From a virus, in the IMG/VR virus record IMGVR_UViG_3300034093_003355, positions 1 through 22,613 of that record: 22,613 bases of DNA; one strand, written 5' to 3'. The first letter of the stretch is position 1; every line of letters starts with the position of its first letter. The notes under the pieces were generated by a model. It was not told the origin of the DNA. It saw nothing but the letters and a program-made list of their open reading frames with translations, and ran no database searches. Shown piece by piece: positions 249 through 15,945 of the stretch. The position numbers were made by a program, and so were the translations under genes.

Positions 249-596
249 TTACTTGGCGTCATCAGCATCAAACAACTTAATCGTTGGAGCTGGGGATGCA
301 TTTGCGGCTTTAAACATTTCAGTGTATTGAGCGATCAAGTTTGGCTCAAGTTCGCAATCGGTAGCTAGTGCTACAGATTGTCTAGCGTAGGACCATGTTG
401 GGAACACGTCACGATCTTTAAGAAACTCTCTAAACATAAGAGGATAGAGTTGAACTTGAAGTTTCTTTTCATTAGTCGGAGACACATTAAGGATAGCTGG
501 TTTAGTTACAGTGATAGTATCTTTGTTTTCAGATACGAGTGTAGCAACGATGGTGCGTTGAATGTTATCGAGGAATACGATGATTTTTGAGTTCAT
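249..596 (-). CDS. Small conserved-looking phage protein, possibly Sm-like (LSm) fold
   Basis: This 115-aa protein has no motif that I can identify with certainty. Residues 3-40 alternate hydrophobic and polar residues (IIVFLDNIQRTIVATLVSE, then DTITVTKPAIL), followed by VQLYPLMFREFL. That pattern resembles the small Sm/LSm-like beta-barrel proteins found in many marine T4-like phages, in which a '...LxxPxxI...LxPF' strand pattern is typical. This is pattern recognition only. The C-terminal third (ASPAPTIKLFDADDAK) is probably flexible and acidic. It sits directly upstream of uvsX (3-nt gap) and 36 nt after queF, so it could be first in a uvsX transcription unit. An RNA-binding or structural role would be a guess. 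Confidence 0.75.
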   Translation of the reverse strand: MNSKIIVFLDNIQRTIVATLVSENKDTITVTKPAILNVSPTNEKKLQVQLYPLMFREFLKDRDVFPTWSYARQSVALATDCELEPNLIAQYTEMFKAANASPAPTIKLFDADDAK

Positions 597-632: not shown

Positions 633-1562
633 TTATTGACGGGGGAACTTAAAGTAAGGAGACTTTGGATTAATAAGATCTATATCTAATAGTTTCTTAC
701 TAGAAGCGCGTGTAGGTACGATATCCCAACCACCACGACGAGCGTAAAAACAAGTTACAAGTAAATCTTCTGGTTGCAAAAAGTCCCAAAGACGTTTATA
801 AGCAGCTTCACAGATTTCTTCGTGAAAATGACATTCATTACGGAACGAAACAATCCATTCAAGTAATGAAGCTTTAGTGACCGCTTTTTTGCTACGGTAG
901 GCAATAAAAATATCCCCAGAGTCTGGCTGCTTAGTAATCTTACAGTTAGAACGAAGAAGGGTACTCATGTAACGTGCTTCAACCCAATCTATATCAACTT
1001 TTCCGTCTAACTTTAATAAATCAGCAGACTCGTTAAATACAGTAAATTTCATTTTCTTTACTTCAGGAATATCTTCAAGAACATCCCAGCCGCCGTAGCT
1101 ATTAAACCATTCGTTTTCCTTTAAGTAATCTCCTTTAAGTTGTTGTGTGTAAAACTCTACTTTAACTGGAGTCTCAAGCAATGCAGAAAGATCTTTTTCA
1201 GCAGTAGCTTTGACATTCTTAAGCACTTCTTTAGGGGTTCTACCGGATGGCTGCATGTTAAAACCGTTCCAGTAAAGCTTCATTGACTTAGACTCTACGA
1301 TGTATGGGTTAGAAGCAGAATAAACTACTTTAGCAACAAAAGACACGGGTAGACCAGAATCTGTTATTGAACTACATTCATAGCCGTTCCAGATATCATA
1401 ACCCACAAAAGGAAGTGATTCGTTTTGCAAACCAAGGTACGTACGGTTACGTTGACGTTCTTCACGTACAAGAATACTAGGGGAGTACCTATCTGGAGAA
1501 TCAACTCTTTGACCAAGTACTTTATCGATATTGTTTGTGTTATAGCTCATTTTATAATTCAT
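633..1562 (-). CDS. queF: QueF, NADPH-dependent 7-cyano-7-deazaguanine (preQ0) reductase, long form
   Basis: This 309-aa protein matches the two-domain (E. coli-like, about 282 aa) QueF family, which reduces the nitrile of preQ0 to the aminomethyl of preQ1 with two NADPH. The QueF signature ESKSMKLY is at residues 90-97. The catalytic cysteine is C207 in LRSNCKITKQPDSG, with Asp D214 seven residues later, as in E. coli (C190, D197). His/Glu at 247-248 (FHEE) match the family's substrate-binding pair. The tail YARRGGWDIVPTR also matches the E. coli protein. All key residues are present, so an active enzyme is expected. It shares a 4-nt ATGA overlap with the upstream NTPase gene, which fixes the start at 1562. 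In a phage beside a DpdA homologue the natural role is supplying preQ1 for DNA, not tRNA queuosine. No preQ0 synthesis genes (folE, queD, queE, queC) are in the window, so preQ0 must come from the host or another part of the genome. Confidence 0.95.
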   Translation of the reverse strand: MNYKMSYNTNNIDKVLGQRVDSPDRYSPSILVREERQRNRTYLGLQNESLPFVGYDIWNGYECSSITDSGLPVSFVAKVVYSASNPYIVESKSMKLYWNGFNMQPSGRTPKEVLKNVKATAEKDLSALLETPVKVEFYTQQLKGDYLKENEWFNSYGGWDVLEDIPEVKKMKFTVFNESADLLKLDGKVDIDWVEARYMSTLLRSNCKITKQPDSGDIFIAYRSKKAVTKASLLEWIVSFRNECHFHEEICEAAYKRLWDFLQPEDLLVTCFYARRGGWDIVPTRASSKKLLDIDLINPKSPYFKFPRQ

Positions 1563-2125
1563 TCGTTAAAATCTTTTTTAATTTCGTTAATTACTGTAGC
1601 AACTCGTTCTTCAACTGACCCAGTAAGAAATATAATATTTTTACTGACGCTGAAGTGATTAATATAAAAGTTAAACTGTGCAACTACTCCATCGAAAAAC
1701 TCTTTATTAACACTACGCTGACCGTCTTCCTTCAACGGAAGTTCTGGCGCTACATAGAATATCTTATTATAAAACGGTAAGCACAACTCGTATACCTTTT
1801 CAGTAGACTCCATAATTGCCTTATCTACTGTGCCTTTTTCGTAAAAGTAATGAGTATATGCAATACCATCTAAAGCAGCTCGATCCAAAATAACCCGTCC
1901 CGGAGTTAAAGCATACTCTAAATGTCTAGACATAATAAGATACTGAGAAGCAGAGTTACCAGCTTCATTAATAGGCAGTAGCTTACTAATATTACGAGTT
2001 AGATTAGTGTTATATGAGAATTTTAACTCACTTGATAGGTATGAAACTTGTTTAAGCGCATTAACAAGAGTAGTCTTACCCTGTGAATGTGCACCACAAA
2101 TAGCTACTTTATAGTTTTTGTCCAT
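1559..2125 (-). CDS. P-loop NTPase / nucleoside-kinase-like protein (AAA_28/NadR-type)
   Basis: The 188-aa protein has a clear Walker A at residues 11-18 (GAHSQGKT). It also has an LDRAALDGIAYTHYF segment near residue 80, typical of small NadR/deoxynucleoside-kinase-like P-loop proteins, where Asp-Arg lies near the phosphoacceptor, and a possible arginine-bearing lid around EDGQRS. The family phosphorylates small nucleoside-type substrates or acts as an ATP-dependent regulator; the substrate cannot be read from the sequence. It lies between the putative DpdN formyltransferase (17-nt overlap upstream) and queF (4-nt overlap downstream), so it is translationally linked to the 7-deazaguanine locus. 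It might act on a modified nucleotide or be a general phage dNMP kinase. The ATG at 2125 is the only Met before the P-loop. Confidence 0.8.
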   Translation of the reverse strand: MDKNYKVAICGAHSQGKTTLVNALKQVSYLSSELKFSYNTNLTRNISKLLPINEAGNSASQYLIMSRHLEYALTPGRVILDRAALDGIAYTHYFYEKGTVDKAIMESTEKVYELCLPFYNKIFYVAPELPLKEDGQRSVNKEFFDGVVAQFNFYINHFSVSKNIIFLTGSVEERVATVINEIKKDFNE

Positions 2126-2711
2126 AAAATGATGTGTTAAGTATATCTTTCTTTTTCAAAAAGGCTACCCAATTCTTAATAGAGATTTCGTGAAGGTGGT
2201 CCATATAACCCCATAAACCGCTTACATAGGTAGACTTAATATCTTCGTTCATGACATAAGCGGATGAGACCACATCTCCAGCATCCACTTCAGCTACAAC
2301 TTTATGAATTACATGACCGTGATACTTGTAGTTAATATCAGAGTTCCATACCTTAGCTTGTGGGTCTTTACCTTTTAATTCCGGATACTTGGTTATTAAC
2401 CCTGGGTGTCCATTATAAATGGTATAACGAAAACAAACTTCTGGTGGAAGTATTCTGAGGTAACCGTGTAACGTAATAAACGCGCCAGGTGGTTTAAATA
2501 CCGTATAATACTCTTCTACAGTCGGTACTCGTGGTAGAAAAACCATACGATCAAACGCAATTTCTAGCAGCTTTGGATTGATCGTATCAATCTTCTCTAA
2601 AGGCTTATTAGTAATAATTGCATTCGGGAGCCTGCCGATCTGTTGAGAGATTTCATAAATCTCAGAACCAGATTGCGAAAATAAAGCATTCCAGACAAAT
2701 TCACGTTTCAT
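2109..2711 (-). CDS. dpdN: PurN-like formyltransferase, probable dPreQ1 formyltransferase DpdN
   Basis: The 200-aa protein is a formyltransferase of the glycinamide ribonucleotide transformylase (PurN) fold. Its FSQSGSEI near residue 11 mirrors the PurN phosphate-loop (SGNGSN). GYLRILPPE (83-91) mirrors 'GFMRILSP'. The catalytic set aligns residue by residue: N100-x-H102-P (PurN N106/H108), H136 (H137) and D143 in EVDAG (D144). It should therefore transfer a formyl group from 10-formyl-tetrahydrofolate to an amine. Purine synthesis (GAR) is the textbook role, and 4-amino-sugar formylation is another known use of the fold. Clustering with queF and a DpdA homologue instead fits the published prediction of DpdN, which formylates the preQ1 aminomethyl in phage DNA. 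It overlaps both neighbours (ATGA upstream, 17 nt downstream). The fold and catalytic residues are certain; the substrate is inferred from context. Confidence 0.75.
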   Translation of the reverse strand: MKREFVWNALFSQSGSEIYEISQQIGRLPNAIITNKPLEKIDTINPKLLEIAFDRMVFLPRVPTVEEYYTVFKPPGAFITLHGYLRILPPEVCFRYTIYNGHPGLITKYPELKGKDPQAKVWNSDINYKYHGHVIHKVVAEVDAGDVVSSAYVMNEDIKSTYVSGLWGYMDHLHEISIKNWVAFLKKKDILNTSFYGQKL

Positions 2712-2947
2712 ACGTTTAGGCGGTAACCTATTATATTATTACTAAAGGAAATTACCATAGCAAAGTTGGTAATTTTTGCAGCTATTATGTAAGCTTTAAC
2801 TGCTTCGAATTTCGATACTGGTAGTATCTCGTTTTTGGTGCAATCAATAAAGTAGTAATCCGTAACGGTTACCCCGCCTTCAAGTAAATTTGGATGATTT
2901 ATTGAAAGATTGTGAGTGATTGCATCTATGTCAGTTAATTCATCCAT
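2708..2947 (-). CDS. Unknown 79-aa protein in the 7-deazaguanine locus
   Basis: This short gene encodes an acidic N-terminus (MDELTDIDAITHNLS) followed by a compact alternating segment with a hydrophobic stretch near residues 45-73 (AVKAYIIAAKITNFAMVIS). I recognise no family. It is judged real because it overlaps dpdA by 8 nt at its start and the formyltransferase gene by 4 nt (ATGA) at its end, so it fills the only space between two clear enzymes in the same direction. It may be an accessory subunit of the transglycosylase or formyltransferase, but nothing in the sequence proves this. Confidence 0.65.
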   Translation of the reverse strand: MDELTDIDAITHNLSINHPNLLEGGVTVTDYYFIDCTKNEILPVSKFEAVKAYIIAAKITNFAMVISFSNNIIGYRLNV

Positions 2948-3755
2948 TCACGTAGCTACGGAAAGCAGCAAGGTTATCTGCAATGCATTTCTCTTGAACA
3001 GCATCTGGTACCGAATCAAGTAGGTCAACCAGTTTAGTACTCTCTTTATTCCAAGTACCGATTTTATCAGAGTAAGCAACTTTCTTAATACCATGTACGA
3101 TAGGTGAAGAGGTGTCCAAAGAGTCAATCCAGCTGAACTCAGGCCCTTGATAAAAACTGAACTCTCTAGGATGCGCACAACCAAGAAGATGATGAGGCTT
3201 ACTCTTATTAATAATACCATCATTCATTAAACGATTAAGAGTCATTACTCGGCCCATCATAAACGATACCCACTTGTTAGGATGAGGAAATACTTCTCGG
3301 TAATAAGAGTAATCAAATGAAATAGCGAGTTTATCCACGTTCATTACTTGATCCATATGGATATAACATTTAACTAACTCCCCGTAATTTTTACCCTGTA
3401 CTACCCCGATCATTCTACTCTGGGTGTGAGGTACGTTATTCCAGTCTAGTTTAAAATTCCAGTTCTCAGCAGATTTAATCGTACCATTGCAATCCTCTAA
3501 TACATCTGGAATAATATATTCGGTAGGTAAGAGTTTATTAATCCAATATGCGTAACGTTCTGAATCAAAAGCAGTACCAAGCTCAAAAATAGAATTATCT
3601 AGTAACACTTTACGGCCCTGCTCTAAGCTCTCTTCAAAGAACTTAAAGTATTGCGGATGAGTTTCGAACAAATGTACAAGAGCGTAGTCGTAATCATTAT
3701 AGGTACGAGAGATCTCGAGCATACTCAAGGGCGATTCGTGTGATAATTTAATCAT
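2940..3755 (-). CDS. dpdA: DpdA-type tRNA-guanine-transglycosylase-like enzyme (DNA 7-deazaguanine insertion)
   Basis: The 271-aa protein shows the ordered landmarks of the TGT fold in shortened form. LLDNSIFELG (51-60) stands for the TGT SDSGGFQ base-pocket Asp (here D53). IIPDVLEDC (81-89) stands for the substrate-binding Asp (D84). IGVVQGKNYGELVK (116-129) matches GIVQGG, with Q120 binding the base. LLGCAHPREF (190-199) matches the 'LMGVG.P.D' strand. WIDSLDTSS (209-217) matches the nucleophile region, with D211 as likely nucleophile, as in the archaeal 'FDSASY'. DpdA proteins exchange guanine in phage or bacterial DNA for a 7-deazaguanine base. The small size and lack of the RNA-binding PUA and zinc regions favour DNA over tRNA. 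It starts inside the end of gene 43 (4-nt ATGA overlap). QueF and a formyltransferase downstream indicate preQ1 as the inserted base. The subfamily is not assigned. Confidence 0.82.
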   Translation of the reverse strand: MIKLSHESPLSMLEISRTYNDYDYALVHLFETHPQYFKFFEESLEQGRKVLLDNSIFELGTAFDSERYAYWINKLLPTEYIIPDVLEDCNGTIKSAENWNFKLDWNNVPHTQSRMIGVVQGKNYGELVKCYIHMDQVMNVDKLAISFDYSYYREVFPHPNKWVSFMMGRVMTLNRLMNDGIINKSKPHHLLGCAHPREFSFYQGPEFSWIDSLDTSSPIVHGIKKVAYSDKIGTWNKESTKLVDLLDSVPDAVQEKCIADNLAAFRSYVNG

Positions 3756-6316
3756 GTAAATAAGTCAAATAGATCGGTTTGTGCTTCGTTGTTTACTTGT
3801 GGTAATTGCCAGTTAAGAGCGTTGTATACTGCTATTACAGGTGGCTTGATAATTGTATCAAACATCTCTTCATAATCAACTTCAAAATCACTAAATTCAG
3901 GAGGGAAGCTTACTGGGAAACAAAGAGTATCAATATTGTACTTGTTCGGAGCAATATAAATCTTTTTAACCTTACCACCAGAGGTGATCTTTTCGTATTT
4001 GGTTTCTAAGTTACGATGCTTGAGCAATTGGTTGTACCAGATAGCACCTTTAACATGATTCGGGGTACCTTTAGCAATTTTGAAGCCGTCTGCTCTTACC
4101 TGGTGCTTTTCAATATCGCTCAAGCCGCCTCTGATGGCGACATCATCAATAGGCATCTTTTTAAATGTGTCATAAACGTCTCTATAGATAGCATTAGCTT
4201 TATTTTGATCTTGTACCAGCAAACTACTCTCAATTACCTTTTTAATAAGCTCTTTAGCTTTCTTAGGGGTAGTGGAGCGTGCAATTTCAACCCCGACATA
4301 TTTAAACTTACATACATCAGCGCCTTCATCGTTAATAACGTGAATAATATAGCGTTTCTTTTCAAGATACACCGCTACATCACAAATAGATTCTCTTTTA
4401 AAGTAATACCGAGGGTCAACAGAATTTAGCTTATCTTTAGCCCATTCTTTAATCTTATCGTTGAGATAGACTCCAATTTCATCGTCAATAAGCTCAAGGC
4501 CGTCTTTATTAACTTTACCGTCTGTAAAGATTTCTAACTTCTTTTTATCCAGTAGAGGCTGAATGCTGATATGAGTGCTATCAGTATCGCCATAAACAGT
4601 GAGCGACTTACCTTCATAACCATACTTCTCCCTCGCATATCGGTCGATAATTTCACTGGCTTGCTTAACAACTGCTTGACCAGTGAGAGTAATACTACCG
4701 GCATGATCACTATCACAAATAGGGCTAAACTTATTAGCAAAAACCCCGTAGATAGAATTGAGTAGAATCTTGATGACGTGTTGTATGGTGTCTGCTCGTT
4801 CCATAGTCGACTTACACGTTTTGTATTCATCAGTATCTACTGTTAACTTACTTAACTTTTTCTTTAAGTCTACGTATATGTTCTTGTTTATTACACGCTC
4901 TTTATACAGGCCGTCAATAAGTGAAGGTACCACGCCTTGCTTCTTTTGAGTATAGAGTACGTTAGCTTTGGATATAGCGAGCTTCTCAGCTTGCATAAAC
5001 TGAACAAACTTCTCGTTAGAGAGCTTAAAATCCTTGTTACTAGTTAGACGTATAGTGATACTCTCATCATCCTTAGCAACTATCTTACCAACCTTTGTCT
5101 CCGGGGATATATTCAGGGTAATAATAGTATTAGGGTATAGTGAGTTAGCGTCATAACTTACAACCGAGGTTTGAAGACCTCTTTCGGGATCTCTAACGTA
5201 TCCACCTTCAATAGCTTCTCGAGTAGGTCCTTCTACGAAAGTAGGTATAACCATACCGTGCTTGTAGGCTTCTAGAGCTACACATCCAGTAACAATAGAT
5301 ACCTTACCAAGCGCAGCTTCAAAGCTGGTTAAACCTTTATAGGCCAACATACGGATAATCTTAAAGAATTGAAGTTTCTTCTCCATTCTCACTAACAGAT
5401 CAACGTCTTGAATGTTGTAGTTAACAAAGTTATCCCAATCAGTCTTAGATAGATCTGCTAAATTAGTAGCATTAATAGCTAGTTTACCTTCTCCGAGTTC
5501 ATGCTGGGCAACAAAGTTAAGAGCATACGATTCAAGTAGTCCGCGTGCAAAACCTCTATACACTTCCATGTAATCCATTGCAGATATACCATGTATATAC
5601 CAGCGATCCAATTCCTGCCCTTTAACGAAGATACCTTTACGGCACCACAAACTTTTTACTGGAGATAAGCGTTTTGCAGCATCTTCCCCTAAAAGACTAT
5701 TAATACGGTTAATAAGATAGGGGAAGTCGAAAAAGTCCGTATTCCACCCCGAAAGAATATCTGGGTAATAATCCTTCTCCCAAAACTCTAAGAACCTCTC
5801 AAGTAAGTCATGCTCACTTGTACATTCAGTATAAACTACGTTCTTACGAGTAGGAGTGTAAGGTTTAGCGCCGAAAGTATAAAACGTCTCAGACAAGTTA
5901 TCATATACAGTGATTAAATTAATCGGGTGCTTAGCGTCTTTAGCTTCCGGGAACTCATCTGGCGAATACACCTCGATATCAAGAAAGCATACCTTAAGAG
6001 GGTTATTAGAAAACTCAGGTTTATCGTAAACGTCTTTGAATTGCTCGATGAGAAATTGCTGCTCTACTTGAATGTTATGATAGAGTCGTTTGATTGCTCC
6101 GTCTTGAGCAGCTTTATTACGGTCAAAGTTACTTCTGAATACCTTCTTCTTTAACTTAGTATTAAAGATAGACAACGCATCAGCCGTATCAGAATTAGTC
6201 TCGATATAAAAATACGGCTGGTAAGGCATCTTCTTAATGACACGATTACCCTGCTCATCCCAAGTAAAGAGCTGACAGACGCTATCTCGAGGGCTATAAT
6301 AGATATTACGGTACAC
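3752..6316 (-). CDS. 43: DNA polymerase, family B (T4 gp43-like), with proofreading exonuclease
   Basis: This 854-aa replicative polymerase (T4: 898 aa) has every catalytic motif. Exo I is D113-I-E115. Exo II is WNTDFFDFPY with D197. Exo III is YNIQD with Y300 and D304. Motif A is YDANSLYPN with D389. Motif B has K516 and NSIYG at 520-524. Motif C is YGDTDS at 575-580. The C-terminus ends TDLFDLFT, matching the T4 clamp-binding tail (LFDMF), so it should dock on a gp45-type sliding clamp encoded outside the window. The start is GTG at 6314-6316: the frame is open for only nine codons further upstream and contains no ATG. The start lies in a hairpin described separately. Unlike T4, clamp, clamp-loader and regA genes do not separate it from gene 46. 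It overlaps dpdA by 4 nt. Confidence 0.98.
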   Translation of the reverse strand: MYRNIYYSPRDSVCQLFTWDEQGNRVIKKMPYQPYFYIETNSDTADALSIFNTKLKKKVFRSNFDRNKAAQDGAIKRLYHNIQVEQQFLIEQFKDVYDKPEFSNNPLKVCFLDIEVYSPDEFPEAKDAKHPINLITVYDNLSETFYTFGAKPYTPTRKNVVYTECTSEHDLLERFLEFWEKDYYPDILSGWNTDFFDFPYLINRINSLLGEDAAKRLSPVKSLWCRKGIFVKGQELDRWYIHGISAMDYMEVYRGFARGLLESYALNFVAQHELGEGKLAINATNLADLSKTDWDNFVNYNIQDVDLLVRMEKKLQFFKIIRMLAYKGLTSFEAALGKVSIVTGCVALEAYKHGMVIPTFVEGPTREAIEGGYVRDPERGLQTSVVSYDANSLYPNTIITLNISPETKVGKIVAKDDESITIRLTSNKDFKLSNEKFVQFMQAEKLAISKANVLYTQKKQGVVPSLIDGLYKERVINKNIYVDLKKKLSKLTVDTDEYKTCKSTMERADTIQHVIKILLNSIYGVFANKFSPICDSDHAGSITLTGQAVVKQASEIIDRYAREKYGYEGKSLTVYGDTDSTHISIQPLLDKKKLEIFTDGKVNKDGLELIDDEIGVYLNDKIKEWAKDKLNSVDPRYYFKRESICDVAVYLEKKRYIIHVINDEGADVCKFKYVGVEIARSTTPKKAKELIKKVIESSLLVQDQNKANAIYRDVYDTFKKMPIDDVAIRGGLSDIEKHQVRADGFKIAKGTPNHVKGAIWYNQLLKHRNLETKYEKITSGGKVKKIYIAPNKYNIDTLCFPVSFPPEFSDFEVDYEEMFDTIIKPPVIAVYNALNWQLPQVNNEAQTDLFDLFT

Positions 6317-7519: not shown

Positions 7520-9329
7520 AATTTGTAGTTCTTGTAGTTATACCGTTTTTCTTTTCAAGGTATACTATCTCGCCGCTTGTACAGTATTTTTTACTTTCTT
7601 TACGGTGCGAGATAATATAGATAGACTCATTATAGTTATCTACCCTTTCTCTTAGAATATCAAGTACTAACTCAATACCTTTCTCATCTAAAGACGAATC
7701 AAATAACTCATCAAACATACTTAAATTGAGCCAAACATCAGCTTGTGCTCTACGAATGTCCTGAAAAGTAAATAACATCGCCAAGTCAATAGCTTTACGT
7801 TCAGCACCAGAGAAGTTAAAGTAACTACACTCTTTACCTCTTTCATTAGTAATGGTTTCATCAAAGAACTCGTTAAATACAACATTACTATTACTCTCGA
7901 GTCTGCGCAGGTATTGAGCAAGTCGTGTATTAAGAACCTGTAGTATCTTTTTCACAATAAACGACTTTACACCTTCTTCTGAAGTAATAAACTTAGCATT
8001 CTCAATAATATCCATTCTTTCCTGTAAAGCAAGAATAGCTTCTTTAATCTCTTTCTGACGAACTAAAATACCATTAATTGTATCTTGAAAGTCGTTAGAG
8101 TCTTTATTAAGCTGATCAATATCGATAACCAATTGGTTCTGCCAATCGTTAAGTTGCTTGGTACGAGAGTTGATATTCTCTACTTCCTTTTTACGAATAG
8201 CAAAGTTGTTTAACTTGCGCTCCATATCAGGTATAGACTTTTCAAGCTTGTCTAAGTTCTTTTGTGCTTCTGCAAGACGAGGCTTCTCTCTTGTAACTAC
8301 TTCAGTGTAGTTATAAACTTCTTGACTACAATCATCTTTATCTTTTTCGTACTGGGTATTAGCAGCTTCTGCGAGATCTTTACCGCAATGTTGACACTTA
8401 CTGTCGACTTTCTTGAGCTTCTTAACACGATCTGTATTAAACTTAATGTGTGCTTCTGCTTCAGTGATAAGCTTGTTGATTGCAGCTACTTTCTTATCGT
8501 AAGCCTTTTCTGCATCTTTTAAGAGCTTCAGATCTTCTTCGACTTTAGCTTGCGCAGCTATATCAACCGACTCAAGCTTACCGAGCTTTTCATTAAGTAA
8601 CGCAAGTTCTTGAATATTATTATTCTGACGGTTAACTAGAGTATCGAGCCTTTTCTTTTTATTAGCCTCGTAATTCTCTTGTTGTTTAGCAGCTTCAGTT
8701 AAAGAGCGTTCTACTTCTACATGCTTAGTATTTTCAATATCGATACTTCTCTTAACATCGTTAAAATCAGAACGTGCCTGAAGTAGCATATTGCCAAACA
8801 CTTCAAGCCCTAGAATACCTTCAATAAACTTACGCTTCTCGACCTTCTTTTGAGCCATGAACGGTATCGTATTATTAATAGTCATAATAATACTATTCTG
8901 AAACACTTCAGAAGAGGTCTTAATAATATCTACGATATACTCTGTAGTTTGAGGTACTCCAGAACGGGTAACATCTTCCCCGTTTATAAACAAATAACAC
9001 TTAGTAGGGTTAAGGGTTCTTACGATCTTACACTTGTTTACTTGTTCGTTCTGTTGGTAGTCGAATTCTAACTCTACTTCGCAAAGACTATCAGGTGCTT
9101 GATCGTTAACAATATTTTCCTTCTTGAGATCTCGAATAGTGGATCCATATAACGCAAAGTGTACTGCATCTGCAATAGTAGACTTACCTACCCCGTTAGC
9201 TCTATCAGCTTTATCGTAATTCTTACCTGTAATAATGTTTAAGCCAGGTTTAAAGAATACCTCAACCGGTTTCTTGCCAATAGACAAGAAATTAGATACC
9301 TTTATATGCTTAAAGTGTACATACCGCAT
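7506..9329 (-). CDS. 46: gp46, SbcC/Rad50-like subunit of recombination nuclease
   Basis: This 607-aa ABC-type ATPase (T4 gp46: 560 aa) is an SMC-like protein. Residues 1-170 hold the N-terminal ATPase lobe with GKST (48-51). The P-loop is stretched, with about six extra residues between GKN (35-37) and NGVGKST compared with the usual GxNGxGKST. Two long coiled-coil arms (about 180-305 and 325-450) flank a zinc hook, CQHC at 312-315. The C-terminal lobe has the ABC signature FSGAER (506-511), Walker B ending MFDE (538-541), the D-loop SSLD and the H-loop His (H575). With gp47 it resects DNA ends for recombination-dependent replication and degrades host DNA in T4. It is separated from gene 47 by the 9-kb glycan island, whereas the two are close neighbours in T4. 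Confidence 0.96.
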   Translation of the reverse strand: MRYVHFKHIKVSNFLSIGKKPVEVFFKPGLNIITGKNYDKADRANGVGKSTIADAVHFALYGSTIRDLKKENIVNDQAPDSLCEVELEFDYQQNEQVNKCKIVRTLNPTKCYLFINGEDVTRSGVPQTTEYIVDIIKTSSEVFQNSIIMTINNTIPFMAQKKVEKRKFIEGILGLEVFGNMLLQARSDFNDVKRSIDIENTKHVEVERSLTEAAKQQENYEANKKKRLDTLVNRQNNNIQELALLNEKLGKLESVDIAAQAKVEEDLKLLKDAEKAYDKKVAAINKLITEAEAHIKFNTDRVKKLKKVDSKCQHCGKDLAEAANTQYEKDKDDCSQEVYNYTEVVTREKPRLAEAQKNLDKLEKSIPDMERKLNNFAIRKKEVENINSRTKQLNDWQNQLVIDIDQLNKDSNDFQDTINGILVRQKEIKEAILALQERMDIIENAKFITSEEGVKSFIVKKILQVLNTRLAQYLRRLESNSNVVFNEFFDETITNERGKECSYFNFSGAERKAIDLAMLFTFQDIRRAQADVWLNLSMFDELFDSSLDEKGIELVLDILRERVDNYNESIYIISHRKESKKYCTSGEIVYLEKKNGITTRTTNYDIS

Positions 9330-9347
9330 TCGGTTATTATAGCTACT

Positions 9348-10115
9348 TTACAGAGAAAGCCAAGGCCAAGTTTTAACGTATTCTCTCAATTGATCCGCTG
9401 ACATAGTATCCACTTTTTGATACTCAACAACGTTTTTCTGGTAGTATGGATTGCTTTCATTACTATCTTGTTTACGTGCATGGTCAATATGAAAAAGCGG
9501 TCCCTTGACGCGCCCTACACGGTAACCTAATTTAACAAACCGTCTAAAGCGTTCCCAGTCTTCTGCACCCCAAGAGATAAAATACTCGTTCTCCATCCCG
9601 CTATCTAAAAATGCTTGTCTATTTAAAAACAACGCGCCACCCATAGAGTTTTTACCAAAATTAGGATAATTATCTGGATTGAGAGTATTCACACTAGCTT
9701 GTTCGTGTACTTCGGTACCTGCTGTTAATAAAAGGCTGCGTGGTATATTAACAAAAAGCCCATCATACGGATACACCATATCAGCTTCATTATTTTGCAA
9801 AATACTATACGCTTTAGTTATTTGCTTATGAGGAAACATAACATCACAATCATAATTAGCAATAAACTTAGTCGTGGTTAAACGAGCCATTTTATTGAGG
9901 TATCTAGTGCGATGAAAAGGACCACTTTCTTTTTCAGAAATAATTTTTACGTCCTTATGGTCATATTTAATATGACCGACATCGGGCCCGTTTTCATATA
10001 TAATGATATTGGTATCAAACGCTAACAAATGATTAATAATACAGATAAGATTTTGATATCGGTCAGGTGAATCAATTCTGACAGGTATAGTAAAAGTAAT
10101 GTCTTTAAGATTCAT
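9348..10115 (-). CDS. GT-A glycosyltransferase with galactosyltransferase-like C-terminus
   Basis: The 255-aa protein begins with a GT2-type Rossmann strand (ITFTIPVRIDS) and carries a DxD metal/donor motif, D89-C-D91, in ANYDCDVMF. Its second half (MGGALFLNRQAFLDSG, then WGAEDWERFRRF) matches the N-terminal-Gly/C-terminal-Glu-Asp acceptor region of galactosyltransferase-type GT7 enzymes. It should transfer a hexose from a nucleotide sugar by an inverting mechanism; donor specificity cannot be read. It is the last gene of the glycan island before gene 46 (18-nt gap) and follows the ColD-like gene by 5 nt. Confidence 0.85.
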   Translation of the reverse strand: MNLKDITFTIPVRIDSPDRYQNLICIINHLLAFDTNIIIYENGPDVGHIKYDHKDVKIISEKESGPFHRTRYLNKMARLTTTKFIANYDCDVMFPHKQITKAYSILQNNEADMVYPYDGLFVNIPRSLLLTAGTEVHEQASVNTLNPDNYPNFGKNSMGGALFLNRQAFLDSGMENEYFISWGAEDWERFRRFVKLGYRVGRVKGPLFHIDHARKQDSNESNPYYQKNVVEYQKVDTMSADQLREYVKTWPWLSL

Positions 10116-10120
10116 TTTTA

Positions 10121-11287
10121 TTAATTAAACTGATTCAAAAAGTTTGCGAGTTTATTAATATGCGCTTTCGTAATTCTACTATGTAAGCCTACGTACATTC
10201 CGAAATCGTGTAAGTATTCACTATTAGGATAAAATGCGGGGCTAGAGTAGCCGTTAAGACAAGTTTGACGTAAAAGATTACCTGAAATAATTGGTCGGTA
10301 CTCTATATTATTAGATGCACAAAAATATTTAGTTTGTTCTAATGCGTCCTTGTCTTTAAACAATAAAGGTATACAGAACGGTACGTCGGCACTATTATCC
10401 CCGTTGTTTAATTGTTTCATTTTAAGTAATCTTATAGTACGACTTTTAAGCTGAGTAACCAGTAGACGATAGAGCTCTTGACGTTTACTAATATACATGT
10501 CGACTCTTTTAAAGTCTAATAAACCAATAAAAGCGTTAATATTGGTGTTTCTGAAGTTGCTACCGAGCTGATAAAAGTCAAAGCGACTATCAACATCAGA
10601 ATTAGCGTATTTTATTTTTGCAGCTGTGGGCAAACTACGAACCATGCCGTGGTTACGAGCCATTAAATAGTATTCATACTCAAATTGATCATTAGTAAAG
10701 ATAAACCCACCCTCTACGCTTTGCAATTGATGACCAAAATACGTACTTGTAGTAGAAGTAAAGAAAGATGAAACATTTTTACCTTTATGAGATCCAAGCG
10801 TATTTTCACAATTATCAAACATGACCCTTACCTTATAAGTGGATGCAATTTGTTTTATTTTGTCCATGTCTGGTACAAACCCTAAAAGACTTGTAATAAA
10901 GATACATGCGATTTTGTCAGAACTAGATTTAAGGTAATCCTCAAGTTTGTTAAGATCCATAGATAGGTCTTGAGTATTAACGTCAATAAAATGAGGTTTA
11001 AAGCCTTCTCTAATAAAAGGTGAAACTGAAGTGATCCAAGTAGTAGAAGGAACTACTATAACATTGTTCTTAGAAGTATCTTTTAAGTACATTGCTAACA
11101 TAGTATTAGCAGTAGACCCGCTTGAAACAAATACTGCATATTTGCTACCTACAAATTTAGCCATGGTTTCTTCATACTTCTGGACCTGATCAGCCATGGT
11201 CCAGAAGTTTTTTTCATTAAGAAAAAATTTGCATAGTTTTAACCTATCTAAGAAAGTAAAATTAGACTCATTAAGATTCCATCTCAT
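10121..11287 (-). CDS. DegT/StrS-fold PLP/PMP sugar enzyme with catalytic Lys replaced by His (ColD-like 3-dehydrase)
   Basis: The 388-aa protein is a fold-type I DegT/DnrJ/EryC1/StrS family member: SSGSTAN (55-61) binds the cofactor phosphate and D158 in FDNCENTLGS binds the pyridine nitrogen. In aminotransferases the next motif is 'SFHxxKxxxxGEGG', with Lys forming the internal aldimine. Here it reads STYFGHQLQSVEGG (181-194), placing H186 at the Lys position. His at this site is the hallmark of C3-dehydrases such as ColD (GDP-4-keto-6-deoxymannose 3-dehydrase, also 388 aa as I recall, catalytic H188) and CDP-sugar E1/RfbH. The neighbouring GMER-type gene (17-nt overlap) points to GDP-colitose rather than a CDP sugar. 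The product would be a 3,6-dideoxy-4-keto sugar. The alternative is a degenerate or inactive aminotransferase. Confidence 0.78.
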   Translation of the reverse strand: MRWNLNESNFTFLDRLKLCKFFLNEKNFWTMADQVQKYEETMAKFVGSKYAVFVSSGSTANTMLAMYLKDTSKNNVIVVPSTTWITSVSPFIREGFKPHFIDVNTQDLSMDLNKLEDYLKSSSDKIACIFITSLLGFVPDMDKIKQIASTYKVRVMFDNCENTLGSHKGKNVSSFFTSTTSTYFGHQLQSVEGGFIFTNDQFEYEYYLMARNHGMVRSLPTAAKIKYANSDVDSRFDFYQLGSNFRNTNINAFIGLLDFKRVDMYISKRQELYRLLVTQLKSRTIRLLKMKQLNNGDNSADVPFCIPLLFKDKDALEQTKYFCASNNIEYRPIISGNLLRQTCLNGYSSPAFYPNSEYLHDFGMYVGLHSRITKAHINKLANFLNQFN

Positions 11288-12194
11288 TCAAGTATTTATC
11301 GTATGTTGTATAAATGCCATTTTCGAGACTAGTATATTTAAACTCTGGAAATAGGTTTCTAAACTCAGTAGTACTAACGTCTTTTCTAAACTGGCCGTCA
11401 GGTTTAGAAGCATCCCACATTATCTTTAAATCCGTTGCATTACAAGCTTTTAGAGCAATTTCAGCTATTTCCTTTATACTATACGTCTCGTCTGGAGCTA
11501 CATTAAAGTTTTTTGTTATGTCACTCATTATAGTACGAAATATAACTTTTGCAAAATCTTTTGCGTACATAAATTGTCTTAAAGGCTTACCAGTACCATA
11601 CAAGGTTATAGAATCTTTGCCTTTTTTCTTAGCCGTAGCAATCTTATGTATTAAACTGCTTACATAATGAGATTTGTTACCAACAAAGTGATCATGCTCT
11701 GAATACATGTTACACGGTATAAGATAGTTATATTTTGTATGATATTGAGCGTTGTATGTATCAATCTGAACACCTAAACAACGCTTTGCATAACCATAAG
11801 CAAAATTTGTAGGGGTAGGCGCCCCTTCATGTAGTCTTGACTCGGCCATTGGGTATGCTTCTTCTGCAAGTTGATCAGGATATATACAAGTACTTAAAAC
11901 CCCTAAAAATCTAGTAACTCCATGAGCGTGTGCAGACTTCAATACATTAGTATTAATGTATATATTTTCTTCAAAAAATTGTACAGGGTTATTAATGTTA
12001 TCTAATATACCACCTACTTTAGCGGCAAGATGTATTACAGTATCATATTTGCCTCTTTTAAAGAGTAAATCTACTGCATGAGGGTCTCTAAGATCACAAT
12101 CCTTACTACTTAAATAATGAGCAACAGGTAGGTATGTTTTTAAGTGTTTACCTGTCATACTAGTTCCGCCAGTAACTAAAATATTATTGTGCAT
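11271..12194 (-). CDS. GDP-L-fucose / GDP-L-colitose synthase-type epimerase-reductase (SDR)
   Basis: The 307-aa extended SDR has the NAD(P)-binding TGGTSMTGKH (8-17), AAKVGGI (57-63) and the GMER-specific active site. This comprises S101 with C103 in STCIYP (C109 in E. coli Fcl), the YxxxK pair Y133 and K137, and H176 in the SHYVSSLI stretch (H179 in Fcl). GKPLRQFMYAKDFA (212-225) matches the family 'G.P.RQF.Y..DLA'. The enzyme epimerises C5 (and C3 in Fcl) and reduces C4 of a GDP-4-keto-6-deoxyhexose with NADPH. The same family includes ColC, which makes GDP-L-colitose after ColD. The ColD-like partner next door favours the colitose version. The upstream enzyme Gmd is not in the window and must come from the host or another locus. 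Confidence 0.88.
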   Translation of the reverse strand: MHNNILVTGGTSMTGKHLKTYLPVAHYLSSKDCDLRDPHAVDLLFKRGKYDTVIHLAAKVGGILDNINNPVQFFEENIYINTNVLKSAHAHGVTRFLGVLSTCIYPDQLAEEAYPMAESRLHEGAPTPTNFAYGYAKRCLGVQIDTYNAQYHTKYNYLIPCNMYSEHDHFVGNKSHYVSSLIHKIATAKKKGKDSITLYGTGKPLRQFMYAKDFAKVIFRTIMSDITKNFNVAPDETYSIKEIAEIALKACNATDLKIMWDASKPDGQFRKDVSTTEFRNLFPEFKYTSLENGIYTTYDKYLNEMES

Positions 12195-12840
12195 ATTTCC
12201 AATAAGTCGAGAGTTGCGAGTGTAATTTGCGATCTCTTAGTAGATACAATTCGCAGGGTATCTTTTTAATGGGTATATGTTTTGTTTTAAGCATATGAGT
12301 AATTAGCTCCTCCCCTGAAGTAATCATTACTCCTTGTTTAAAGTAATCGGTAATATTGTGGTATATTTCAGAATATAGCTTTATATTATCCGAGGTTGAG
12401 AAATTAAACCAGTCCGATATTACTTCAGGGTTAGCACATACATCTGGAGAGTAGACTCCTTCTTTGAGGTCAAAGTTTTCCAAATCAATTTTAGATTCTA
12501 AGCCTATATCAAACCGAGTTCTTACTACTAAATCGTATTTAAAATTATTAGCCTGTTCATACTCGGATAAAAGCTTGAGGCTCTCTTTCATTGTATAAAA
12601 CATACTAAAGTGTACAAATACGGCTTGAGAGTATTCTTTTACGCTTAAAGGCACTACAGGCTTTTGTTCTTCTATAATTATAGCCTTAGGTTCATACAAA
12701 TAACAGTCCTTGTTTAATGGACCTTTCCAGGTATGTATAAAAATATCGTAATCTTCGAAGTTACGTAAATTTTTACGGAGAGATTCAAGCCCTTCCAGTA
12801 CGAAACGGCTTTGTCCAGAAAATGAAATAGCTTTTTTCAT
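12184..12840 (-). CDS. Putative GT-A-type glycosyltransferase of unassigned family
   Basis: The 218-aa protein has a pattern seen in many island-borne phage and capsule proteins: a first strand KAISFSGQSRF (3-13), then YDIFIHTW (31-38) and YDLVVRTRFDIG (102-113), where R-x-R-x-D occupies the place of a DxD-like donor motif. The C-terminal half holds SDWFNFSTSD and ends without further recognisable motifs. The call of a nucleotide-sugar transferase is based on this layout and on the neighbours (11-nt overlap with the GMER gene, 4-nt ATGA overlap with the cupin gene). Neither donor nor acceptor is predictable. Confidence 0.65.
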   Translation of the reverse strand: MKKAISFSGQSRFVLEGLESLRKNLRNFEDYDIFIHTWKGPLNKDCYLYEPKAIIIEEQKPVVPLSVKEYSQAVFVHFSMFYTMKESLKLLSEYEQANNFKYDLVVRTRFDIGLESKIDLENFDLKEGVYSPDVCANPEVISDWFNFSTSDNIKLYSEIYHNITDYFKQGVMITSGEELITHMLKTKHIPIKKIPCELYLLRDRKLHSQLSTYWKYAQ

Positions 12841-13160
12841 TCGAGATTATATTTATCGCTCGGTACTGATGGCCATTTTATAACAATTAAATCGGTATCT
12901 TCAAGAAAGGTAACCTCAGCAACCTCTTTAGGGTGATATACGAACATGTCCCCTGTAGATAGTTTCTTATCTGAGGCTACTAGAGAGCCTTTTACTATAT
13001 AGGTTACCTCTGTAGCTATAAAATGCGTGTGTAGAGGGCCAGTGTAACCGGCTTTATGCTGATGATGTGCTACTTCAAAAAAGCAGTTCTTAAACACAGA
13101 CGGGGTAAAGTCCCCGATAAACCAACCGGCTTTAAAGTCTTTAATATTATAAACGTCCAT
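12837..13160 (-). CDS. Small single-domain cupin
   Basis: The 107-aa protein contains cupin motif 1 with metal ligands H44-x-H46 and E51, ending at G58 (GPLHTHFIATEVTYIVKG). The second motif is weaker (GDMFVYHP, lacking the usual terminal His), so metal binding may rely on three ligands. Cupins in sugar clusters act as epimerases, ketoisomerases or sugar-binding regulators; the size fits a sugar-phosphate or sugar-nucleotide binding cupin but the reaction is unknown. It overlaps the nucleotidyltransferase-isomerase fusion by 14 nt and the next gene by 4 nt, so it is part of the same translated series. Confidence 0.8.
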   Translation of the reverse strand: MDVYNIKDFKAGWFIGDFTPSVFKNCFFEVAHHQHKAGYTGPLHTHFIATEVTYIVKGSLVASDKKLSTGDMFVYHPKEVAEVTFLEDTDLIVIKWPSVPSDKYNLE

Positions 13161-14313
13161 AGCTGCCTTCTATCTTTTGAATTCGCGCACAATGACGACC
13201 ACCTTCAAAGCGAGTGTTTAAAAATGTGTAGATATAAGTGCCTAATATCTCCGGGGTAGTGATACGAGCGGGTATTGCAAAGAAATTACAGCAATTGTGC
13301 TTAATTGAGTATTCAGCACTATATGCATCGTAAATTAAAGCCGATCTAATACCGTCAGTCTTATTAGCCGCAATATTGACTGCTTGACCGGTACAGCAAA
13401 AACCAATACCGTGAGTACAAGTACCGTTTTTAATAAACTGCACAGCTTGAGAGATGTAATCAAATTGATCGCAATCTTTTTTAGTGAAACAACCTAAGTC
13501 TACGTATTCCACGCCATGTCTTTCAAGTATTTTTTTGCACTGCTCTTTTAATTCGTAGCCGCTATGATCGCACGCAAGAGCCACTTTACCTTTACCGAAT
13601 TGATTTAACACTCGAGTAGTAAAAAACTTATATTCTTCTGGGGTACCCATAATGTACATCTCATCTACTTCTTTGATAGAGATCTTAAGACCATCTTCAA
13701 TCATTAAGTTATACATAGGGGTAATGTAAAACTCGTTACGAGTACGCATATTGTGCATAATCATTGACTCGGCGTATTCTACAAACTTACTACCACTTTT
13801 AAAGCCGTACACCCCAACACAGGCATTACTGCTCACTACCTCTTTTTCAGCAGCAAGCAAAGCATATCCTTCCTCGTTAAGCTTAACGTAGCTATATGCC
13901 GGATTATTACTCTTGAATGTAAGAATGAGCCCATCATTAACCATTTCAGCTGGTTTAAATTTAGGACCAAAGTGCACATCTACAGTGTAAATGTATAGTG
14001 GTAGTTCATTATCGATGTATTCTTTAGCTAATAAGCAAGTAGATACACTACCGTCTGTGATGCGATCTATTACTACAATTTTAATATCATTACCAAACTT
14101 TTTACGAAATATTTCATCAACTCCGAAATTATTAATATGGTCTTGTCTTAAACAAAATATAAGATTACATTCAGATATATCAATAGAACTTAACGCCCAG
14201 TCAATAAGGTGCTTATCATAAGCAGTAATCATATACTTCGGAACAACAAAGCCTTCATCTACAAAGCGTTGACCTCGACCGGCAAGTGGTACTAAAAGAT
14301 TATATTTTTTCAT
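13147..14313 (-). CDS. Fusion: sugar-phosphate nucleotidyltransferase + RpiB/LacAB-type isomerase
   Basis: The 388-aa protein has two enzymes in one chain. Residues 1 to about 238 form a nucleotidyltransferase: LVPLAGRGQRF (7-17) binds the NTP, PK at 25-26 is the sugar-phosphate Lys motif, and TVDVHF (110-115) is the metal-binding Asp segment. From about 242 on it is a ribose-5-phosphate isomerase B domain. KVALACDHSGYELK (243-256) carries D249/H250. FCCTGQAVNIAANK matches LCGTGxxxSIAANK, with C306 as the catalytic Cys and an extra C307 replacing Gly. H339-N340 and FEGGRHCAR (369-377) complete the site. The isomerase would convert a ketose-phosphate to an aldose-phosphate (pentose or allose type) and the other domain would make the NDP-sugar. 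Kinase and phosphatase genes lie directly upstream. The exact sugar and nucleotide are unknown. Confidence 0.88.
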   Translation of the reverse strand: MKKYNLLVPLAGRGQRFVDEGFVVPKYMITAYDKHLIDWALSSIDISECNLIFCLRQDHINNFGVDEIFRKKFGNDIKIVVIDRITDGSVSTCLLAKEYIDNELPLYIYTVDVHFGPKFKPAEMVNDGLILTFKSNNPAYSYVKLNEEGYALLAAEKEVVSSNACVGVYGFKSGSKFVEYAESMIMHNMRTRNEFYITPMYNLMIEDGLKISIKEVDEMYIMGTPEEYKFFTTRVLNQFGKGKVALACDHSGYELKEQCKKILERHGVEYVDLGCFTKKDCDQFDYISQAVQFIKNGTCTHGIGFCCTGQAVNIAANKTDGIRSALIYDAYSAEYSIKHNCCNFFAIPARITTPEILGTYIYTFLNTRFEGGRHCARIQKIEGSYGRL

Positions 14314-14980
14314 TTATATAGTAATTGGTAAGTGCGCTGTGAGCGTGCTGTATTACTTTAGGAAGAGCGTTGGTACTATCAAGTAATCCTGCAAGTATAT
14401 AAGCAGCAAGTTTGTCTCCAGCACCTAATACGTTTATTCCGGATACAAGCGTAGCGTTTTGTTTAGTAAAATGCAAATCTTGCTTGTAAAGCGTGCTACC
14501 GGTAGGATAATGCATTAATACCGAGCCTCGAATGACACTACAAAGCGTGGCAATGTCCACGAACATATCTTCATCTGAGATTAATAAAAGATCAATATAT
14601 TGTAAGTTTTTATCGTTTAAGTTTAAAGACTTGCCGTTACACACATCTGCAGTAACAAAACCCTTAAGATCTTTAATAAAGCTAGTATCGGATAGTTCGT
14701 TAATATACATTACGTGACTAACTTTACTATCATGTATAGAAGGTGCTTGAGTTTTAAGTGATAAACGGGATACACTCGTTCTTTTGCACTGTTCTACGTC
14801 TGCTAAGATCAATGACTCACCAATGTCAGTAGGCTCAAGCTTTACTTTAAGATCTGGATTTATTATCTTGAGCTGATTCCAGACATTACCCATACATCCT
14901 ACCGAAGACTTATAATTAAAACCTTCGTAAATGTTGTCATAGCTTAAATGACCGTAAATTGCTATATCAAAACTTTTCAT
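14300..14980 (-). CDS. Compact PfkB/ribokinase-family sugar kinase
   Basis: With the ATG at 14980 the protein is 226 aa, shorter than most PfkB kinases (about 300). The same frame also opens at a TTG at 14989. YGHLSYDNI (9-17) with the SVGCMGN stretch (26-32) stands for the N-terminal 'GE...D' and 'GGxxxN' substrate elements. ISDEDMF stands for the 'N..E' metal motif, and VLGAGDKLAAY (184-194) is the PfkB signature 2 with catalytic base D189. The loss of length appears to lie in the central lid region. It should phosphorylate a sugar or sugar phosphate, by analogy to HldE kinase in heptose activation. It overlaps the HAD gene upstream by 14 nt and the fusion gene downstream by 14 nt. Confidence 0.82.
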   Translation of the reverse strand: MKSFDIAIYGHLSYDNIYEGFNYKSSVGCMGNVWNQLKIINPDLKVKLEPTDIGESLILADVEQCKRTSVSRLSLKTQAPSIHDSKVSHVMYINELSDTSFIKDLKGFVTADVCNGKSLNLNDKNLQYIDLLLISDEDMFVDIATLCSVIRGSVLMHYPTGSTLYKQDLHFTKQNATLVSGINVLGAGDKLAAYILAGLLDSTNALPKVIQHAHSALTNYYINEKI

Positions 14981-15494
14981 TACGATCAAGTGCTTCGACC
15001 TCCTCTACGGTTACACTTTTAACTAGCTTCATATAAAAAAGGTGCTCGTATAGTTCAGTTAAACAATTTTCACCGCTTTTGCTACGTAATATACGGATGT
15101 CAGATACGTTACGTACTTCCCGAGGTGAATCCTGCGGGCAAAATTTATATTTAACTAAATTCATAATGCCGATATCAAATATATCATCCCCAACGTAAAC
15201 CATTTCTTGAGTGGTGACGTTATACTCTTTTTCGAATTGAGTAATGAACGTAGCCTTATTACTCATTACCCCGTCTTTACGGTTAGTATAAAACGGTATG
15301 TTGCGGTTTTCAGCTACCTTTTGGTTAATATTAGGATCCCCTGAAAGGAATACAACATTCCACCCTGTAGCTCTAAATTTTTTAATAGCTGTAAAGTCTC
15401 GGTCATTAAAAGATTTTAATACCGCTTTACCGGTACTATCATAATACTTCTTTCCGTTCGTGAGTACCCCGTCTACGTCTAAGATTAGTAACAT
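14967..15494 (-). CDS. KdsC-like HAD phosphatase
   Basis: With the ATG at 15494 the product is 175 aa, close to KdsC (188 aa). The HAD motifs are complete: I, LDVDGVLTNG with nucleophile D6 and D8; II, S51 in FLSGD; III, K80; IV, VGDDIFD with D103, D104 and D107. There is no cap domain, as in the C0-type KdsC phosphatases that hydrolyse sugar phosphates such as KDO-8-P. The frame is open further upstream to 15536, but the HAD core begins only at 15494, so the shorter start is chosen. Even so it overlaps the GDPD-like gene by 56 nt. With the PfkB kinase and nucleotidyltransferase-isomerase it could remove a phosphate from a sugar bisphosphate, as GmhB does in heptose activation. No KDO-8-P synthase (KdsA) is present. 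Confidence 0.85.
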   Translation of the reverse strand: MLLILDVDGVLTNGKKYYDSTGKAVLKSFNDRDFTAIKKFRATGWNVVFLSGDPNINQKVAENRNIPFYTNRKDGVMSNKATFITQFEKEYNVTTQEMVYVGDDIFDIGIMNLVKYKFCPQDSPREVRNVSDIRILRSKSGENCLTELYEHLFYMKLVKSVTVEEVEALDRNEKF

Positions 15495-15945
15495 AATTCT
15501 TATAATGATATATGTTATCTGAACAAATTCCATCAAAATCTGCTAATTGTTCTTTAGAAAAGTGCCAACGCGTATCCTCTGGCATAACACATATAGATTG
15601 TTTATAAAATTCTTGATAAGTAGGACTCAACCATATATTACCACGGGTGGTAACTACAAAATCGTCTTTGTCTATTGAAAAGCAGTTTAAATTGTAGTAT
15701 GGCAACTTGCAAATTCTTAATGCTTCAATGTTTTTACAATGTATCCAGAGCCCTGGAGTGTTGCATAGAAACATAAAGTCAATAGGATATTGAGCGTTAT
15801 CATGACCTAGAAAAAACTTATCATTTATAGCCCATACGTCTATCTCTACCTCATAACCTTGGTCTACACAAAGTTTGATTTGATCGGGGTGATTTTCCCG
15901 GTCCCCTTTACCGGTTAAATTACCTCTGTGAGATATAAAGTTCAT
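15439..15945 (-). CDS. GDPD-like phosphodiesterase-fold protein (short)
   Basis: The 168-aa protein starts with the glycerophosphodiester phosphodiesterase landmarks: ISHRGN (H6, R7, G8), E17-N18, a Glu/Asp metal set in YEVEIDVW (E34, D36) and GHDN with H48/D49. The family hydrolyses glycerophosphodiesters through a TIM barrel, usually 230-250 aa. This protein is much shorter, so the barrel must be reduced. Related short forms occur in capsule and phage glycan clusters. The last 18 or so codons are basic (NLRRRRGTHERKE) and run through the beginning of the HAD gene in another frame, suggesting that the original end lay near residue 150. The upstream GT10 gene overlaps by 26 nt. Confidence 0.72.
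   Translation of the reverse strand: MNFISHRGNLTGKGDRENHPDQIKLCVDQGYEVEIDVWAINDKFFLGHDNAQYPIDFMFLCNTPGLWIHCKNIEALRICKLPYYNLNCFSIDKDDFVVTTRGNIWLSPTYQEFYKQSICVMPEDTRWHFSKEQLADFDGICSDNIYHYKNYVTNLRRRRGTHERKEVL

Follow-up and report, generated by a model that had tools for sequence, protein, structure and literature searches.

Some phages replace all the guanine in their DNA, and how they do so has been an open question; the Firehammervirus phages are classed as lacking the base-exchanging enzyme DpdA, and for them a route via modified dGTP is mentioned only as a proposal (Hutinet et al., PMC6884629). Relevant to this question is a locus in a 22,613-base stretch of a bacterial virus (IMG/VR virus record IMGVR_UViG_3300034093_003355; the whole stretch is referred to as the window), in which genes for a compact DpdA-like protein with the fold of tRNA-guanine transglycosylase (TGT), a PurN-type formyltransferase, a P-loop kinase and QueF lie in one overlapping unit. 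We report that N-formyl-preQ1 (7-formamidomethyl-7-deazaguanine) is the best-supported predicted product of this unit, and we assign a probability of roughly 0.6 to the reading that the unit makes this base and that it is placed in the phage DNA instead of guanine; replacement of some or all guanine by a formyl-tagged 7-deazaguanine is predicted. Gene content, fold, active-site residues, conservation and linkage were computed, and from these we infer the substrate, the order of the steps, the final base and a role against restriction. An earlier reading made from the letters of the window (the sequence-only reading) had proposed a locus for formylated preQ1 in phage DNA; it is partly supported, its observation being confirmed with corrections. 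Gene sets of this kind are known and widespread; new here are a kinase conserved with the other genes, the division of the operon into a core and genes that tailor the base, the correction of the active site and a tie to Firehammervirus.

The genes form a chain of overlaps on the minus strand that runs from a family B DNA polymerase (PolB) through the compact DpdA-like protein, a 79-aa open reading frame (ORF), the formyltransferase and the kinase to QueF. The overlaps are 4 bases between PolB and DpdA, 8 between DpdA and the 79-aa ORF, 4 between this ORF and the formyltransferase, 17 between the formyltransferase and the kinase, and 4 between the kinase and QueF. The DpdA-like, formyltransferase and QueF genes had been described as a single overlapping unit, and an ORF check recovered all three in place on the minus strand together with the chain of overlaps; the kinase gene (1559-2125) and the coupling to PolB had been overlooked.

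The compact DpdA-like transglycosylase (271 aa; 2940..3755, minus strand) is named from its fold matches and its invariant residues. An AlphaFold model built from 35 environmental homologues has a pLDDT of 90.7 and a pTM of 0.89, and a fold search of the PDB with this model returned tRNA-guanine transglycosylases as all of the best 50 matches (best E 1.2e-8; TM 0.53-0.65 by query length). D53, D84, Q120 and D214 are invariant across the 35 homologues. Using hhalign against Escherichia coli TGT, the motifs GVVQG, KPHHLLG and LDTSSP were paired with GIIQG, KPRYLMG and FDCVMP, respectively, such that Q120 is matched with Q187 and D214 with D264; the global mode also brought the D53 and D89 motifs together. 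We take D264 to be the nucleophile of the E. coli enzyme, and D214 would be its counterpart because LDTSSP aligns with FDCVMP. Hence, D214 is the probable nucleophile of the compact protein and not D211, which the sequence-only reading had listed next to D53, D84 and Q120. A direct residue check bore out the latter three; D211 is not among the invariant columns and is a tyrosine in the Flavobacterium phage vB_FspM_immuto (Immutovirus; hereafter immuto).

Membership in the TGT/DpdA superfamily, as proposed before, therefore stands as regards the fold, but sequence profiles did not place the protein there, and this weighs against the assignment: the 271-aa protein gave no significant match in Pfam, in NCBIfam, in a phmmer search of the PDB or with the 35-sequence profile, the best Pfam TGT match among the 35 homologues reached only E = 0.019, and the assignment rests on the predicted fold together with the motifs. 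The zinc site of TGT (CxCxxC...H) is absent; there is no CxCxxC within the 271 residues, and the protein ends before the zinc-binding C-terminal region. In the compact TGTs of Bacillus and Weizmannia phages (L017, L018) the position of Q120 is apparently a histidine (AVCH, not GVVQ), a change that suggests a different base or substrate.

The two enzymes that would shape the base are easier to place. The long-form QueF (309 aa; 633..1562, minus strand) matches both QueF_N (PF14819, 4e-25) and QueF (PF14489, 1e-16) above the cut-off values, as well as QueF in the PDB (4e-33). The catalytic residues C207 and D214 and the substrate-binding pair H247 and E248 were confirmed, and the motif ESKSMKLY starts at residue 90; we assume that this ESK..K motif binds NADPH. 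Each of the 64 QueF ORFs of full length in these loci has it, and therefore a nitrile reductase converting preQ0 to preQ1, as suggested previously, is favoured over an archaeal amidine-forming QueF-L. With 210.5 bits (E 3.6e-62) the window QueF is below the TIGR03138 equivalog cut-off of 293.45 bits; it is divergent, but its homology to the QueF family is clear. The formyltransferase (200 aa; 2109..2711, minus strand; DpdN-like, with predicted formylation of the preQ1 aminomethyl group) matches Formyl_trans_N (PF00551) with 7.1e-7 and 29.6 bits against a cut-off of 26.1, and PurN structures in the PDB match it as well. N100, H102, H136 and D143, which correspond to the PurN N/H/D triad, were verified in the window protein and are invariant in 28 homologues, so the PurN-like assignment made earlier holds. 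Its best profile is PurN, yet it scores 31 bits against the TIGR00639 equivalog cut-off of 150.1. Because the Pfam matches exceed the cut-offs, and because none of the 35 DpdA homologues departs from D53, D84, Q120 or D214, the catalytic residues of QueF, the formyltransferase and DpdA are not there by chance.

Do these genes belong together? Relatives of the transglycosylase were found in at least 575 IMG/VR stretches, and the earlier description as rare is thus wrong; the 80 best stretches were used, and the linkage counts cover those loci that are followed by 2.5 kb or more of DNA, 68 in number. The formyltransferase, the kinase and QueF occur together in 60 of these loci, and the full set is seen in 10 of the clusters formed at 70% DpdA identity; the remaining eight comprise six loci with the kinase and neither formyltransferase nor QueF, one with QueF only and one where none of the three was detected. 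Seen from the formyltransferase, DpdA, the kinase and QueF accompany it in 60/60 loci with enough downstream DNA, which is naturally read as a sign that it formylates the preQ1 amine. As a point against it, the formyltransferase could act on something else.

The exceptions give insight into how the operon is organised. In one close relative (L063) the formyltransferase and QueF genes, which flank the kinase, are both missing, and the transglycosylase, the 79-aa ORF, the kinase and a 115-aa gene are kept. L063 groups with the clade of the window in the DpdA and kinase trees (support 100/99 and 100/100), with its exact position not fixed and a long kinase branch; both missing genes are present in the sister clades, which makes loss the simpler explanation. 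The joint loss with the kinase retained therefore separates a preQ1 pair (QueF and formyltransferase) from a core (transglycosylase and kinase). Moreover, in an immuto-like locus of a metagenome-assembled genome (L141) the formyltransferase was not found, and a GNAT acetyltransferase gene and a weak amidoligase-like gene lie between DpdA and QueF (8980-10923), possibly resulting in an acetylated or amino-acid-coupled preQ1. Another locus (L142) has the transglycosylase, the kinase and QueF and no formyltransferase. The lack of the formyltransferase in these two, and the GNAT gene beside the QueF of L141, make the preQ1 amine look like a variable tailoring site. In a locus binned to Clostridiales (L143, 182-4388), genes for a MazG-type pyrophosphohydrolase, the compact TGT, the formyltransferase and a large polymerase-like protein stand in a row; QueF is not seen in the available stretch, where the contig ends close upstream, and we do not claim a strict dependence of the formyltransferase on QueF. 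A 221-aa ORF between DpdA and the formyltransferase in another relative (L076, 6803-7465) is a possible extra tailoring enzyme.

The closest cultured counterpart is immuto, in which the order is the same: DpdA, a small ORF, the formyltransferase, a 'thymidylate kinase', QueF and a hypothetical protein. Hence the window is not the unique test case for which it had been taken. Identities to the window proteins are 51% for DpdA, 46% for the formyltransferase, 41% for QueF and 33% for the kinase, and the immuto DpdA and QueF are already annotated under these names. Formylated preQ1 in DNA (fdPreQ1) was reportedly measured by Cui et al. in 2023, who are said to have named DpdN and probably used immuto DNA. 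The surroundings differ: just upstream, immuto has genes for FolE, QueD, QueE, a phosphoribosyltransferase and a MazG-type pyrophosphohydrolase, and downstream it has one for a family A polymerase, whereas PolB is directly upstream in the window.

The kinase-like protein (188 aa; 1559..2125, minus strand) matches phrog_2107 (3e-22) and AAA_28 (5e-11), i.e. the phage 'thymidylate kinase' and NadR families. It has the Walker A motif GAHSQGKT at residue 11 and a conserved DR motif, and its AlphaFold model (pLDDT 89.7) resembles the ribosylnicotinamide kinase domain of NadR, TMP kinase and deoxynucleoside kinases with E values of about 1e-6; we refer to it as a P-loop deoxynucleoside/nucleotide kinase-like protein. 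A search of 50,697 phage records found relatives in 20. Of these, 18 also carry a compact TGT (14 Campylobacter and 4 Flavobacterium records, representing two phage lineages and not 18 independent events); the two records with the kinase and no compact TGT are of one Streptomyces phage, LukeCage. In the annotated regions looked at, the kinase gene directly follows the TGT gene in CP220 and CP21, and in immuto the small ORF and the formyltransferase gene lie between them. Other kinases take the place elsewhere: the compact TGT of the Bacillus and Weizmannia phages adjoins a phrog_761-type kinase, and an AAA_18 kinase occurs in six phage records, the same six that have the Cellulophaga/Chryseobacterium TGT.

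The Campylobacter phages lead back to complete guanine replacement. In Firehammervirus (CP220, CPt10 and CP21) a compact TGT homologue with 43% identity is followed by a member of the same kinase family; the CP220 protein, gp056, is annotated as 'hypothetical protein' and the identity to the window protein extends over most of its length. In CP220 and CPt10, 100% of the dG is replaced by the modified nucleoside dADG (PMC8306585). Neither QueF nor a formyltransferase occurs anywhere in the CP220 record, as would be expected of a phage that carries dADG. Through this TGT-fold protein and its kinase partner the locus family connects Firehammervirus with a widespread environmental cassette, and two candidate genes, the compact TGT and the kinase, can now be named for complete guanine replacement.

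The following pathway would be consistent with these data. preQ0 would be supplied either by the host or by phage genes located elsewhere; no preQ0 gene was recognised in the 22.6 kb of the window, and among 11 long contigs of relatives QueC is present in 8, FolE in 7 and a PTPS/QueD-type gene in 9, and therefore preQ0 can be phage-made. QueF would reduce preQ0 to preQ1, the compact TGT would swap guanine for the 7-deazaguanine base by way of a covalent intermediate between D214 and deoxyribose, and the formyltransferase would formylate the 7-aminomethyl group, presumably from 10-formyl-tetrahydrofolate. If the exchange takes place on dGMP or deoxyguanosine, the kinase would then move the product towards the dNTP for use by the coupled polymerase. 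Protection against restriction is a plausible purpose by analogy with other 7-deazaguanine phages (PMC6884629).

Whether the base is exchanged on nucleotides or in finished DNA is the point where the readings part. The sequence-only reading placed both the exchange and the formylation in finished DNA, an assumption to which the nucleotide route is a serious rival. We consider exchange on deoxyguanosine nucleotides, followed by rephosphorylation and polymerisation, to have not quite an even chance, and to be somewhat likelier than exchange at the DNA level. It is favoured because the kinase is nearly confined to phages with a compact TGT and because unrelated kinases and MazG recur beside the TGT. 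In immuto-like loci, in Cellulophaga phage phiST and in L143, the TGT gene has a gene for a MazG-type pyrophosphohydrolase as a direct or close neighbour; in CP220 an HD + AAA protein is directly upstream of the TGT. DNA polymerase genes are beside or close to the compact TGT in the window and in Bacillus, Weizmannia and Brevundimonas phages as well as phiST. In the window this is the gene for PolB (854 aa; 3752..6316, minus strand), which was named from its own sequence and because PolB is also the neighbour in L063, and which is, through the 4-base overlap, translationally coupled to the transglycosylase gene. This pattern of kinase, MazG and polymerase resembles nucleotide-level replacement, as in the 2-aminoadenine pathway of cyanophage S-2L (PurZ, DatZ and MazZ; PMC8342488), more closely than DNA-level exchange. 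There, an analogous replacement of a whole base is made at the nucleotide level with the help of a MazG-type pyrophosphohydrolase, but the chemistry and the enzymes differ: here they are a transglycosylase and a kinase, with MazG in some lineages only.

Several observations weigh against exchange on nucleotides. No kinase was found near the compact TGT in L093 and in the Brevundimonas phage StAshley, and PF03819 (MazG) gave no match in the close relatives of the window, which are fragments, so that we reject MazG as a universal part. Nucleotides of dADG were reportedly sought and not detected in infected Campylobacter (Crippen et al. 2019). Furthermore, DNA is regarded as the substrate of those phage and bacterial DpdA enzymes that have been characterised (PMC6884629). 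The same base might accordingly be made on finished DNA, with DpdA exchanging guanine for preQ1 or preQ0 in the duplex, the formyltransferase (DpdN) formylating the preQ1 deoxynucleoside (dPreQ1) and the kinase being an ordinary phage dNMP kinase that shares the operon, and to this we give an appreciable chance, albeit well short of even. The bacterial DpdA and that of phages 9g and CAjan (Queuovirinae) set a precedent for it, and CAjan DpdA (306 aa) has no adjacent kinase, in line with the two compact TGTs that lack one. As in the window, the TGT-related protein of 9g/CAjan is encoded near DNA polymerase genes, and preQ0 genes adjoin it; this DpdA inserts 7-deazaguanine in DNA and modifies about 32% of the G and not all (PMC6884629). 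The compact protein is nevertheless no obvious CAjan-type DpdA: it is without the zinc domain of TGT, and an hhalign comparison of the compact family with CAjan DpdA gave a probability of about 2-3% with only a short LDxxxF region aligned. An ordinary dNMP kinase would also not be expected to be almost confined to compact-TGT phages, to be retained when the formyltransferase and QueF are lost, or to have unrelated kinases recurring in its position. A smaller share is left for something other than these two routes. We therefore tentatively propose, at rather less than even odds for the proposal as a whole, a pre-replicative pathway where a zinc-free TGT acts on dGMP or deoxyguanosine together with a dedicated kinase and a coupled polymerase, MazG or HD proteins make dGMP from dGTP in some lineages, the same module is the missing insertion step of Firehammervirus, and the preQ1 amine is an exchangeable slot (formyl here, possibly acetyl in L141). 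If exchange does act on nucleotides, the TGT fold would have been put to a new use, and DNA fully substituted with 7-deazaguanine could be made in a simple manner.

Other explanations concern the formyltransferase or the target of the whole set. Since PurN is its best profile, the formyltransferase may be an auxiliary gene of purine synthesis (a GAR transformylase) that supports nucleotide supply, in which case the DNA would carry dPreQ1; cyanophage PurN-like genes match the immuto formyltransferase at 34-38% over part of its length. We regard this as unlikely given the wide gap to the PurN equivalog cut-off (31 vs 150 bits) and the ties of the gene, which goes with QueF, the TGT and the kinase in 60 loci, is absent together with QueF in L063 and is missing from eight further genomes or contigs that were examined. 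Far less probable is a sugar N-formyltransferase that serves the phage glycan genes at 9348-17529, although formylated amino sugars are common surface sugars and a DegT aminotransferase and an epimerase are encoded in the window, because more than 6 kb separate the formyltransferase gene from the sugar genes, because it overlaps the genes for the small ORF and the kinase, and because many other loci have it in the same position amid 7-deazaguanine genes. Least probable of all is that the 7-deazaguanine genes serve tRNA queuosine and not DNA. The synthesis of queuosine for tRNA does use QueF and the preQ0 genes as well (PMC6884629), but the compact TGT has neither the TGT zinc site nor the C-terminal domain, its gene adjoins a DNA polymerase gene in other lineages and is coupled to one in the window, and a homologue is present in phages with 100% dADG in their DNA (PMC8306585).

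Outside the enzymes discussed, the 79-aa ORF (2708..2947, minus strand) gave no match in family searches; it is conserved in the clade of the window, with homologues beside DpdA in close relatives. A conserved 115-aa protein (249..596, minus strand; weak match to phrog_527) is encoded 36 bases after QueF, and the position of its gene is conserved, i.e. after QueF or, in L063, directly after the kinase. With respect to more distant phages, a profile search of IMG/VR with the Bacillus group had no matches, and candidate QueF genes in the Bacillus, Weizmannia and CAjan phages were discarded, the weak matches falling in genes annotated as FolE/GTP cyclohydrolase. In phiST (L136, 1540-7728) QueD, QueE, FolE, MazG, the AAA_18 kinase and the compact TGT are followed by DNA polymerase III alpha; the stretch shown has no QueC, and its TGT is annotated only as hypothetical. 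The PolB of L063 (3272-6004) has 910 residues compared with 854 in the window, with approximately 56 extra residues in the exonuclease motif after DIEV that may represent a small intein-like or other insertion. Finally, the sugar gene cluster of the window (9348-17529) encodes, in addition to the DegT aminotransferase and the NAD epimerase, a LacAB/RpiB-ended fusion, a HAD hydrolase and glycosyltransferases of families 10, 11 and 7C, and Immutovirus likewise pairs gene sets for DNA modification with sets for surface glycosylation, according to a review (PMC11500664).

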